Shown piece after piece: positions 17,059 through 20,503 of a DNA stretch of 64,000 bases. The translations under genes were made by a program, and so were the position numbers. Positions within the stretch are counted from its first letter, which is position 1. Each line of letters begins with the position of its first letter. Source of the stretch: Paenibacillus sp. BIC5C1 (GTDB taxonomy: Bacteria > Bacillota > Bacilli > Paenibacillales > Paenibacillaceae). The notes under the pieces were generated by a model that was not told the DNA's origin, ran no database searches, and saw only the letters and a program-made list of their open reading frames with translations. The stretch is from assembly GCF_032399705.1 (NCBI RefSeq), contig NZ_CP135922.1:1302001-1366000 (forward strand). Direction: 5' to 3'.

Positions 17059-18960
17059 ATGAAAAATGTGCCCAAAGCTATCATCATCTTATGGATAAGT
17101 ATGTTGAATATTCTTTGCTTGCCGCATGATTTCGTCTCAGCGACTGCAGGAGAAGTTGACAAACCTGTATCCATTACGGGATGGGAAGTAAAATGGGGGA
17201 ACGTACACGATCAGGGATTCATCAGTGAGGTTCAAGGTTCGGAGGAGATCTGGGAGAAGCAAGGTGCAGAAAAGCTGGAATATAGCAGCGTAGAAGCCCC
17301 TTCAGGTTCCATGTGGACACGCGTGACCATTCCTAAAATAAACGAAGATAGCTCGGCAATCCGTTTTGAAAATATTAAAGGGAACCACATTGTAATCTAT
17401 CTGGACGATCGTAGGGTTTATGAGAATTATCATTACAATTATGATAACAACGCTGTGTTGTTGCCCCTTTCGAGTGAGAATTCAGGTAGCAAACTGTATG
17501 TATGGTCCGAGAATGAAAAAGGCAGACTTGGCATTTATGGAACAGTTCAGGTTGGGCCTTATGCTACATTACAGGAAAAATACATTCACAATGGTCTGCT
17601 TGATGTAATATTGGGAGCGACCTTTGTGTTCACGGCTCTAACGATGCTGAGTTGCACTTTTTTCCTGGGGAAATTCCATAAAGGGTTGTGGATTTCGCTA
17701 TGTATCGTGATGGGTTCTATTGGAACGATGATTATCACCTATTCACAGTTTTTATATACGTTCTATCAGGTTTACGGTAATCTGTATTCCGTATTGTTTG
17801 ACCTGGCTATGCTGATGGGCATGCCTGCACTCTGTTATTTTTTTGAACAAATTATCGGACCAGGTCGTTATGGCATCTTTACCAAACTAAGAAAATTCCA
17901 ATTCATCTATTCTGTAGTAGCTGTGGCTGCCCTGATGATTGATTTTATTTCAGGCGGTCAATGGGACATGCTCTATACTTTGTTGGTTCAGAATGTAATT
18001 GGATTTGTTCTCGTTATCCTGTTGAGCATCTTGATGATCGGCACCATCGCCAAAGCGCTTCAACGGAGCCGGGAAGCTCTTTTGCTGGCTACGGGATTCG
18101 GCACATTTGCATTAATCAGTGTTGCTGAACTACTGTGGTATTACCAGCGTAATGGAACATATCATCTGATATGGTGGAAATGGTCCATGGTTGCTTTTAT
18201 TATCTCACTTATTGCCATACTGGGAAGCCGATTTGCTGAAAAACATACCAAAGTGCTTGAATACTCAAAAGAGTTGGAATTGTTTAATAATGAGTTGCAG
18301 CGTTCCGAGAAAATGGAGATTATAAGCGAATTGGCTGCCTCGGTTGCTCATGAGGTTCGTAATCCACTGCAGGTGACACGAGGATTCCTTCAGCTCATGA
18401 CAGAGCAGGAAGACAACAAAAACAAAGGGTATGTGCGGATAGCTCTGGAGGAGCTCGATCGGGCATCCGGCATTATTACCGATTTCCTCACGTTTGCCAA
18501 ACCGGAGTTCGATCATATTGTCTCTTTGAATATCGCGGACGAATTTAATCATATTGAGGGTATTCTTGTACCGATGGCTAATCTGGAAGGCGGCAAAATA
18601 ACAACTGACATTCCGCCCAATCTATGGATTAGAGGGAACTCCTCCAAGTTCAAACAGGCTTTTATTAATATTATTAAGAATAGTATAGAAGCTCTGCAAG
18701 GACAGGGTCAGATCGATATTTGGGCTTATGCCCAGGATGGGATCGTTAAGGTACATGTTAGAGATAATGGAGAGGGCATGGATGAGGAAGCGCTGGTCCG
18801 GCTTGGGGAGCCATATTTCTCGAATAAAATTAAGGGGACAGGCCTTGGAATGATGGTGACTTTCCGAATCGTTGAAGCCATGCATGGGCAGATCAGCTTT
18901 ACAAGCACAAAAGGGGTAGGAACAGAAGCCGTCGTATCTTTTGCTGCGTTCGTCGAATGA
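17059..18960 (+). CDS. Orphan 7TM-type sensor histidine kinase
   Basis: Membrane histidine kinase of 633 residues. After a signal-type segment (about 1-30) comes an outer beta-rich domain (about 30-180, with WTRVTIP and RFENIKGNHIVIYLD) like the 7TMR-DISM extracellular type, then seven membrane helices (about 180-395). A HisKA domain with phospho-acceptor His431 (VAHEVRNPL) and an ATPase domain with the N box (Asn541), DNGEGMD and GTGLGM follow. The HisKA type resembles sporulation kinases such as KinB, not the DegS/ComP type. GAGGTG precedes the ATG. No response regulator is adjacent. It converges, 78 bases away, on the peptide precursor and prenyl-synthase-like genes, suggesting but not proving a sensing link. 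Confidence 0.9.
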   Translation: MKNVPKAIIILWISMLNILCLPHDFVSATAGEVDKPVSITGWEVKWGNVHDQGFISEVQGSEEIWEKQGAEKLEYSSVEAPSGSMWTRVTIPKINEDSSAIRFENIKGNHIVIYLDDRRVYENYHYNYDNNAVLLPLSSENSGSKLYVWSENEKGRLGIYGTVQVGPYATLQEKYIHNGLLDVILGATFVFTALTMLSCTFFLGKFHKGLWISLCIVMGSIGTMIITYSQFLYTFYQVYGNLYSVLFDLAMLMGMPALCYFFEQIIGPGRYGIFTKLRKFQFIYSVVAVAALMIDFISGGQWDMLYTLLVQNVIGFVLVILLSILMIGTIAKALQRSREALLLATGFGTFALISVAELLWYYQRNGTYHLIWWKWSMVAFIISLIAILGSRFAEKHTKVLEYSKELELFNNELQRSEKMEIISELAASVAHEVRNPLQVTRGFLQLMTEQEDNKNKGYVRIALEELDRASGIITDFLTFAKPEFDHIVSLNIADEFNHIEGILVPMANLEGGKITTDIPPNLWIRGNSSKFKQAFINIIKNSIEALQGQGQIDIWAYAQDGIVKVHVRDNGEGMDEEALVRLGEPYFSNKIKGTGLGMMVTFRIVEAMHGQISFTSTKGVGTEAVVSFAAFVE

Positions 18961-19038: not shown

Positions 19039-19281
19039 TTAGCTTCTCCACGGTCCGCAATTGACGTCATAATCCACTTTGGATGGATTGGGAGGAATCA
19101 CGAGAACGTAATCGTTCTGTTGTTCTTCAACAGTACGGACTTGAATATGTTCAGGAATATCAATGCCAAATGCTTCGCGAAGCGCTTGCTTCGGGTTGGA
19201 GTGCAGTTGTTGTCTGAAGTGCTCATCAGTCCAGGCCTTTTCAATAATATCCTCGTGCAACGTTTTCTCTGATACCATCAT
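19039..19281 (-). CDS. NHLP-leader natural-product (RiPP) precursor peptide
   Basis: Small protein of about 80 residues of the nitrile-hydratase-leader (NHLP) precursor family. It has EKAWTDEHFRQQL, NPKQALREAFGIDIPE and a YVLVIPPNP end, the standard leader layout. The tail KVDYDVNCGPWRS is the presumed core, with one Cys (75) and one Trp (78, third from the end). The start taken is ATG 19279-19281, nine bases after GAAGGGA; in-frame ATGs at 19299 and 19278 are alternatives. It lies 54 bases after the isoprenoid-synthase-like gene on the same strand. No cyclodehydratase, radical SAM or peptide exporter gene is nearby, which is unusual for NHLP loci. Confidence 0.82.
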   Translation of the reverse strand: MMVSEKTLHEDIIEKAWTDEHFRQQLHSNPKQALREAFGIDIPEHIQVRTVEEQQNDYVLVIPPNPSKVDYDVNCGPWRS

Positions 19282-19335
19282 CGTCAACATTCCCTTCATA
19301 TTTAAAATTCAACTGTACCAGCTCTTCTTTGGTGA

Positions 19336-20283
19336 TTAGGACAAATGTTGTTTCTCGCTGATCCAGTAATGAAACCCGCCTTGAAAAAGCATTTTTTTGT
19401 GTTGTTCGATGTCGTGAACAGTTTGTCCCAGAATGCCGCATAAGTAGGAATTAAATGCTTCGAGATGCGAAATTCCCGAGTTAGAAGATGTCAGTCTGAT
19501 GTTATATTGTTGAGCAATGTCTACATAGGAGTTCATCAATTGGGTATTGTATACATTCTCATGTACACGTTCGCTTACAGGATGAGCTGGGTAGTTATGT
19601 TCCAGTGCTGCGGATATGTGGGAGAGGAAGCTGTTGTAATTTCCGTGCACAGCATCTTGTTTCGTGTCTGTGAAGTCATCTGTCATCTGGAGAGTCATCA
19701 GTGCAATGTTGACGGCAGAACATACCGGAGTAATCCGATGCTCCTGTTCCAAAAGAAGGAGTGAGCCCGCAGCTCCAAGTTGAAGTGGGGCGGCTTTTTG
19801 GGCGATTAATAGCGGGTTTCTCTTGAAATAGTCTATGGAGTTCTCACCGGTGACGCTCATGGCCCAATCCTCCACATACTGTCTGAAATACGTCCAGAAC
19901 GGGGAAGAAAGGCTGAATAGCTCTGAATAGACACAGATCGCATCCACGTAGTAAAGATTACCCAGTGATAATTTCAGTGTCACATCTTCTGGCTGCTCGT
20001 CCATAACTTCATCCTGATTCAGAAAATATAGCATATGCAGGAGACAAGCAGTACTTAGTTTGTGTGCCTTCTCTGGAGGTAGACCATCCGAGAGCTGCAT
20101 CCACAAAGGAATAATGTAGCCGATGTAGCTGTGACCCGAATCTCGTAACAAAGGATTGACCAAATGAAGTTGTTCTAGTGCATGTTCTGACATTAATTCA
20201 GGATATTTCTGTACCAGCTGCTCTGCTGCAGCGAACACCACCTCCACATCGGATCTAAACGGATCAAACCATTCTCTCCGCAT
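19336..20283 (-). CDS. Class I isoprenoid-synthase-fold protein (ComQ-like candidate)
   Basis: All-helical protein of 315 residues resembling trans-prenyl synthases. A helix ending LLHMLYFLNQDEVMD (first Asp-rich motif at 89-95) and a second, LQMTDDFTD (DDxxD at 202-206), are placed as FARM and SARM are in the fold and would bind magnesium and a prenyl diphosphate. There are no membrane segments. It lies directly upstream of the NHLP precursor gene in one likely operon. The known precedent for this pairing is ComQ, which prenylates a Trp in the ComX peptide; that this protein does the same is inference. Alternatives are a terpenoid synthase with an unrelated neighbour. Confidence 0.75.
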   Translation of the reverse strand: MRREWFDPFRSDVEVVFAAAEQLVQKYPELMSEHALEQLHLVNPLLRDSGHSYIGYIIPLWMQLSDGLPPEKAHKLSTACLLHMLYFLNQDEVMDEQPEDVTLKLSLGNLYYVDAICVYSELFSLSSPFWTYFRQYVEDWAMSVTGENSIDYFKRNPLLIAQKAAPLQLGAAGSLLLLEQEHRITPVCSAVNIALMTLQMTDDFTDTKQDAVHGNYNSFLSHISAALEHNYPAHPVSERVHENVYNTQLMNSYVDIAQQYNIRLTSSNSGISHLEAFNSYLCGILGQTVHDIEQHKKMLFQGGFHYWISEKQHLS

Positions 20284-20503
20284 CGTTTGGTTACGCCCTT
20301 CCCATAATAAAGTAATTAAGGACTTTTCGACTAGATCATGAAGTTACTCTCAGTATACCGGAAATGAATTGAAAAAAATAGGATGTTTTGTGATGAATTG
20401 TGAAAAAAACTATGACATTTTGTATTTTTATGGCATAAAAAAGCGGAAGTTAGGCTCAAACTAAGAGGGCACAGGATTTTGACATATGAAAGGAAGAAGA
20501 GAA

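Follow-up and report, generated by a model that had tools for sequence, protein, structure and literature searches.

A PalQ/PalX-type gene pair with an internal core tryptophan and a near-frozen precursor peptide in Paenibacillus sp. BIC5C1

In the genome of Paenibacillus sp. BIC5C1, a gene for a protein with the two Asp-rich motifs of isoprenoid synthases is followed by a gene for a small peptide with a tryptophan close to its C terminus, which raises the question of whether the two proteins act together and, if so, in what kind of system. The pair lies in the 64,000-nucleotide stretch analysed here (positions 1,302,001 to 1,366,000 of contig NZ_CP135922.1), which we call the window. A preliminary description made from the sequence had seen in it a new class of prenylated peptide, with a ComQ-like modifier and an NHLP leader. 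Reading of the sequence bore out the gene order and motifs on which that view was built, with both genes and both motifs at the positions given in Table 1; the palX-like gene is the downstream one, 36 bp from the palQ-like gene, and the peptide tail NCGPWRS indeed places Trp84 at −3. The precursor was also rightly called NHLP-type: it matches TIGR03793 with 65.9 bits against a curated cut-off of 50.9 (E 2.2e-18) and is the only NHLP peptide that this model finds in the 7.08-Mb genome. Its translation probably starts at the third Met (MMVSEK), giving 80 aa, because the open reading frames (ORFs) of loci L016–L018 begin there. We noticed no cyclodehydratase or radical SAM gene among the ORFs at 13–27 kb of the window or in a Pfam scan of seven neighbouring genes.

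Table 1. Positions of the gene pair, its key residues and neighbouring features in the window.
Feature	Position	Strand	Remark
palX-like gene, NHLP precursor	19039-19299	minus	86 aa ORF, TIGR03793 match
palQ-like gene, trans-IDS-like Trp prenyltransferase (putative)	19336-20283	minus	315 aa, 35% identity to PalQ
First Asp-rich motif NQDEVMD, residues 89-95	19999-20019	minus	D91, D95 = PalQ D89, D93
Q199 and second Asp-rich motif (DDFTD, 202-206)	19666-19689	minus	Q199, D202, D206 = PalQ Q197, D200, D204
Codon of core Trp84, proposed prenylation site	19048-19050	minus	invariant core column
palP-like histidine kinase gene	17059-18960	plus	Pfam HisKA and HATPase_c; convergent to palX
Direct repeat TTGTGA-N4-TTGTGA (plus-strand letters), upstream of palQ	20388-20403		

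The class itself proved to be known. An NHLP leader, a trans-IDS-like Trp prenyltransferase and a histidine kinase were brought together in 2023 by Miyata, Ito and Fujinami (PMC10853753), who described in P. alvei a cluster of the histidine kinase PalP, the NHLP precursor PalX and PalQ, a former 'terpene synthase'. In vitro, PalQ attaches C5, C10 or C15 prenyl groups to PalX; NMR of the C5 core-peptide product showed forward prenylation at C3 of the C-terminal Trp, and an Ala added after this Trp abolished activity (PMC10853753). A 2026 review reports low PalQ activity on a Gly-flanked internal Trp and groups PalQ, ComQ and ChrPC as trans-IDS-like Trp prenyltransferases (PMC13290415). The window has the same three genes as P. 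alvei, namely a homologous enzyme, an NHLP precursor and a neighbouring kinase, but differs in its acceptor Trp, which is third from the C terminus rather than last, and in its NCGPWR stretch, where a Cys, invariant in the 25 members of its clade, sets it apart from P. alvei PalX. Its enzyme is only 35% identical to P. alvei-type PalQ, from which the reaction is read across: because P. alvei PalQ prenylates in vitro, prenylation would be expected at the window locus as well. We therefore consider it highly probable that the window pair is a PalQ/PalX system, of a branch with an internal acceptor, in which the Trp of the small peptide is prenylated. The earlier idea of a ComQ-like modifier acting on an NHLP-led precursor thus stands on PalQ homology, the in vitro chemistry of PalQ and named residues, but its claim to a novel class does not. 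Our own observations concern the presence, homology and linkage of the genes, their shared occurrence and absence across genomes, the catalytic residues and the constraint on the peptide; parts of the spread or of the Trp variation reported below may already stand in Figures S3 and S6 of PMC10853753.

For comparison of the enzymes, we used as PalQ reference the locus L084, taken as P. alvei type by six published residues (K39, D89, D93, Q197, D200 and D204, all at their published positions) and by the start of its core, DNVRRF. At its very end, the reading frame of the L084 precursor no longer follows the published core, and it was left unaltered; the exact back-translated P. alvei core pattern occurs in none of the 19 genomes in the genus of genome G272. 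The window enzyme and L084 PalQ are identical at 108 of 307 positions (35%, E 7e-64), and their alignment retains the PalQ catalytic residues as D91, D95, Q199, D202 and D206. All of these, together with D203, are invariant among 31 relatives of the window enzyme, and Q199 corresponds to the Gln proposed to bind the indole in PalQ (PMC10853753). K39 is not kept, with L41 in its place; it is described as not well conserved (PMC10853753).

General family models do not recognize the window enzyme: it has no Pfam match below 0.01 (best E 0.055, at chance level) and no NCBIfam match, and PF00348, the trans-prenyl diphosphate synthases, matches neither it nor its relatives except for 1 of 31 (E 0.003). 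DUF5685 (PF18937), which may be a distant relative of PalQ, gives weak matches in 7 of the 31 relatives (best E 7.4e-5). An AlphaFold2 model built with 19 related sequences is all-helical and of mediocre quality (pLDDT 65.9, pTM 0.65). The Foldseek comparison proposed in the preliminary description agreed in kind but not in significance: 49 of the best 50 of 249 rows (E up to 10) are isoprenyl diphosphate or isoprenoid synthases or MoeN5, with probabilities of 0.98–1.00 for these 50, but E-values are 0.0036–0.11 and none reached 0.001; the remaining one, 'ACP-HEPS2', could not be placed by name. Because these E-values are weak, the assignment of an isoprenoid-synthase fold leans mainly on PalQ homology. 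A profile of the 31 PalQ relatives found no convincing relative among solved structures (best E 0.055), and hhalign of the PalQ profile against the polyprenyl synthase loci of the same genome, entered as three single sequences, gave a best probability of 6%, the comparison being void for L238. The genome holds three PF00348 matches. At L239 (C1, around 3,006,935, beyond the window), a long ORF, of which 761 aa lie inside the locus before its edge cuts it, has a C-terminal polyprenyl synthetase part (E 1.3e-45) and an N-terminal part with a DDFADMFDD stretch; this is perhaps a two-domain isoprenoid enzyme comparable with ChrPC.

Next, we considered how widely the enzyme occurs and whether the precursor goes with it. 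With a PalQ profile, matches were obtained in 326 of the 394 family genomes and, in an overlapping sample from the order, in 193 of 296 genomes; in a class-wide sample that includes the order, all 37 matches among 398 genomes fall within this same order. The linkage of precursor and synthase genes, on which the preliminary description had staked its reading, is present in 25/25 close relatives of the window enzyme (61–99% identical) and in 107/110 wider loci. In the former, all on genome contigs and hereafter the own clade, the precursor next door has an intact NCGPWR, and a convergent kinase lies beside the pair, in every case. The direct repeat upstream of palQ is present in 23 of these 25 loci (exceptions L013 and L014), has a single match in the 64-kb window and is found in 0/4 loci without palQX; we take it to resemble ResD-type boxes.

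The 110 survey loci outside the own clade were chosen non-randomly (60 from the top family matches, 30 weaker ones for other genera and 20 from the order search). Among them, an NHLP precursor is encoded on the same strand within 1.3 kb in 107, a convergent kinase lies within 1.3 kb in 103, and both are found in 102. The precursor is missed where PalQ stands alone (L059), where the precursor follows 2.9 kb on (L110) and where precursor and kinase are inverted (L160); the kinase is missed at L059 and L160 and also at L131, L136, L137, L148 and L149, five short loci whose flanks, of about 1.5 kb, may hide it. At L137, one palQ is followed by five tandem NHLP precursors, four of which have a single residue after the Trp; the fifth lacks the Trp tail. 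Sixteen survey loci (L073, L074, L079, L080, L089, L091, L094, L097, L101–L103, L107–L109, L114 and L171) have two tandem palP-like kinases downstream of palQX, which are maybe two receptors for one peptide.

To these loci we added a comparison of genomes with and without the enzyme: the 30 PalQ-negative genomes listed by the family and order searches (8 genera), in none of which a second PalQ profile found a match, and 30 PalQ-positive controls (3 genera). The PalX profile matched all 30 positive genomes, which lie outside the profile set, with a best E of 1.1e-29 or lower in each. Its matches in three of the 30 negative genomes were judged on reading the ORFs not to be PalX, being nitrile hydratase-like subunits (G110), another NHLP-like peptide in a different neighbourhood (G246) and a 72-aa peptide without Trp (G268); loci L173–L176 were assessed by reading ORFs alone. 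Because precursor and enzyme are present and absent together, the two genes seem to be gained and lost as one block. The kinase gene behaves differently, as palP occurs in 30/30 PalQ-positive but also in 15/30 PalQ-negative genomes, including 12/12 of the PalQ-negative genomes tested from the window's own genus group. In four genomes (G113, G112, G116 and G142; loci L222–L225), the neighbours seen in the window stand in the same order from the MFS gene to the MCP gene; the interval between palP and the homologue of o20486 contains neither palQ nor palX, and palP is intact and 78–80% identical. These loci appear to have lost palQX rather than never having had it, and they may be receivers that have no sender. 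Within the own genus group, palP also stands beside an o20486 homologue without palQX in eight further genomes (L226–L233). The kinase thus seems to have a life of its own or to listen to others, and its presence in half of the PalQ-negative set indicates that it may answer to something else.

The core of the precursor is where the window branch departs most clearly from P. alvei. As the preliminary description had expected, the Trp is conserved, forming the sole invariant core column in 31 precursors. The Cys that it had also stressed is not a family feature: present in 25/25 own-clade precursors, it lies near the Trp in just 2 of 113 survey precursors. The Trp is at −3 in 22 and at −4 in 3 of the 25 own-clade peptides. 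Among the 113 survey precursors (from 107 loci), it is last in 70, second from the C terminus in 30 (a count that includes four tandem copies of L137), third in 7 and fifth in 4, the two oddities being L084, with its frame change at the end, and the fifth L137 copy; counted by locus, it is not last in 38 of the 107 survey loci with a precursor. Trp position follows enzyme lineage. On a tree of 118 rows (12 of the 25 own-clade loci and 106 of the 110 survey loci, with L059, L110, L160 and L084 dropped, and with multi-precursor loci labelled by the precursor nearest palQ), it requires 14 changes, where shuffling gave a mean of 45.2 and 0/200 shuffles were as low, a clustering that near-copies in the tree help. 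A long branch (1.19) leads to the own clade, whose fork with lineages in which Trp is last has a support of 85 (not starred).

Since P. alvei PalQ was inactive with an Ala after the Trp, either the window branch differs in its acceptor or two C-terminal residues are removed beforehand. By the second account, the enzyme would act, like PalQ, on a Trp that has become C-terminal, and −3 would reflect a difference in processing. The intolerance of PalQ to extension (PMC10853753) speaks for this, as do the 1 to 4 residues, variable in the family, that follow the Trp and the natto ComX precursor, which loses C-terminal residues (PMC5331326). However, trimming would not demand the invariant Arg after the Trp in all 25 own-clade peptides, Trp position clusters by enzyme lineage, and we noticed no peptidase gene adjoining the pair; we regard prior trimming as possible but rather unlikely. 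An internal acceptor would have a precedent in ComX, whose Trp is mostly third or fourth from the end, and in ComQ of RO-E-2, which needs a Trp second to fourth from the end (PMC5331326). With its Trp at the third or fourth position from the end, the window branch therefore unites an enzyme and leader of PalQ type with ComX-like geometry.

This branch is also marked by constraint on the peptide. Among 12 own-clade loci, nonsynonymous difference (pN) is 0.052 for palX, 0.102 for palP and 0.189 for palQ at a similar, near-saturated synonymous divergence (pS 0.66–0.70 across the three genes), which makes the precursor the most constrained of the three proteins, and the NCGPWR stretch is unchanged. 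In the wider family, the core varies, the Trp apart. The near-frozen palX of the window clade is unlike ComX, which is reported to vary widely among Bacillus strains (PMC5331326). Together, these features make the internal-Trp branch with its near-frozen peptide a distinct variant of the known PalQ/PalX class.

To ask what the peptide is for, we turned to the kinase. The convergent kinase of the window corresponds to PalP of P. alvei: by Pfam and hydropathy, its 633-aa product has a signal peptide, an outer domain of about 150 aa, about seven hydrophobic helices, HisKA (H431) and HATPase_c. The nearest solved structure to its kinase domain is that of sporulation kinase B (E 3.7e-54; next 1.7e-26), and its best NCBIfam matches are AtoS (2e-44) and KinD (3.1e-39), none near the cut-off. 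The Pfam scan of seven neighbouring genes found no response regulator; this, together with the KinB-like kinase domain, suggests that PalP may feed Spo0F/Spo0A. The phosphorelay is conserved in Paenibacillus (PMC12826061), and two P. polymyxa kinases, Kin1377 and Kin1038, are reported to have restored sporulation in a B. subtilis kinase mutant, Kin1038 partly (PMC6429003). One study of eight P. polymyxa strains reported that they lack the B. subtilis ComQXPA genes (PMC6052121). Among the matches listed in open-licence literature, we found no test of PalP or of a Paenibacillus Trp-prenyl pheromone.

The sensor part of PalP was examined for traces of a shared history with the peptide. Identity to locus L001 over the transmembrane region is 0.41–0.43 in three rows with palQX versus 0.27–0.32 in four without, in a comparison of few and related rows (kinase identity to L001 0.71–0.75) that gives four of the eight rows lacking palQX. 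Within-group sensor-to-kinase divergence ratios are 6.67 and 4.11 without palQX versus 5.70 and 3.23 with it, by which the sensor is not clearly faster-evolving in groups without the pair. Across 66 non-redundant loci of 98, distances between cores correlate positively with distances between PalP sensors, given kinase or PalQ distance (0.40 and 0.45 for core and transmembrane region), and because all 10 partial tests reached the permutation floor, shared ancestry is inseparable from co-evolution. An AlphaFold model of the sensor (pLDDT 44) was set aside. As neither sensor divergence nor the correlations discriminate, signalling from PalP to the phosphorelay is a reasoned guess, and we put the chances that the window peptide is a signal at about even. 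A fuller scenario, which we advance tentatively and with more doubt than belief, is that PalQ–PalX–PalP is an order-wide system of prenyl-peptide quorum sensing that reports to the sporulation phosphorelay; the window clade, with its ComX-like Trp geometry, would be a derived 'pherotype' in which many species share one frozen pheromone, and some relatives would have dropped the signal genes and kept the receptor to eavesdrop.

Alternatively, the prenylated peptide could have a non-signalling job as a membrane-active or antimicrobial lipopeptide, with PalP sensing the state of the envelope and controlling production or protection. Among antimicrobial peptides to which PalQ had added a prenyl group, activity was highest with C10 (PMC13290415). 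The persistence of palP in 15/30 PalQ-negative genomes and, intact, in the four matching loci that lack palQX would fit such a sensor, as would the convergent arrangement, in which PalP shares no operon with the pair. Weapons usually diversify, whereas the own-clade peptide is under stronger constraint than either of the other two proteins; the precursor and PalP occur together in 102 of the 110 survey loci, and we noticed no immunity or export gene flanking the pair. We judge this explanation unlikely, though a serious one. We give very little credence to a third possibility, in which the peptide would be an unmodified regulator or a chaperone-like protein of nitrile-hydratase-like fold, conserved at full length for that role: in the own clade, strong conservation extends over leader and core alike, but in the wider family the core varies save for the Trp, the pattern of a modified residue. 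Least probable of all is an ordinary prenyl diphosphate or terpene synthase that happens to have an unrelated NHLP peptide as its neighbour, a reading that the fold matches to prenyl diphosphate synthases and the two intact Asp motifs would allow, but that we rejected on the linkage (25/25 and 107/110), the precursor found in 30/30 PalQ-positive versus 0/30 PalQ-negative genomes once the three other matches were read, the lack of a PF00348 match for the window protein, the three PF00348 matches already present in the genome, and PalQ homology that includes the Trp-recognising Gln.

With a prenylated PalX-type peptide as the preferred reading, the locus can be set beside other systems. Like the window, ComQXPA of Bacillus joins an isoprenoid-synthase-like enzyme, a short peptide with Trp third or fourth from the end and a membrane kinase; an NHLP leader, a HisKA kinase nearest KinB and a convergent kinase gene are features of the window. 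The four ComQXPA genes lie on one strand (PMC4008528), whereas the window kinase gene is on the opposite strand, and no adjacent regulator of ComA type was seen among the seven scanned neighbours. ComQ is said to lack the second Asp motif (PMC10853753), which the window enzyme has as DDFTD, a distinction drawn here from description. Lanthipeptide (MppC) and cyanobactin prenyltransferases, the latter of the PagF type, also make prenylated RiPPs, and we liken them to the window by description only. MppC, too, uses a structured leader (PMC12715784); the cyanobactin enzymes have an alpha+beta barrel (PMC10853753).

On these grounds, we propose the following course of events, in which prenyl chain length, processing, export and signalling through PalP are what we infer for the window pair. 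The PalQ-like enzyme would bind the NHLP domain of the precursor, its Asp motifs holding an isoprenyl diphosphate, probably C10–C15, and the prenyl group would move to the indole of Trp84, which would then probably close to a pyrroloindole ring, as with PalQ and ComQ. Cleavage of the leader would set free a short C-terminal peptide, most likely to be sensed by the adjacent 7TM histidine kinase PalP, which may pass the signal to the Spo0F/Spo0A phosphorelay. We noticed neither an exporter gene nor a leader peptidase gene next to the pair.

PalQ was introduced as an enzyme that prenylates a C-terminal Trp and that can serve to lipidate peptides. Because the Trp is not last in more than a third of the survey loci with a precursor, natural PalQs probably include other acceptor geometries, or a trimming step, and enzymes of such geometries would be useful both as tools and for learning how the acceptor position is chosen. 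The wide distribution of the system makes the question of signalling worthwhile: if PalP reads the peptide, it would be a widespread and little-studied cell–cell signal in the Paenibacillaceae, bacteria that matter in soil, on plants and in bees.
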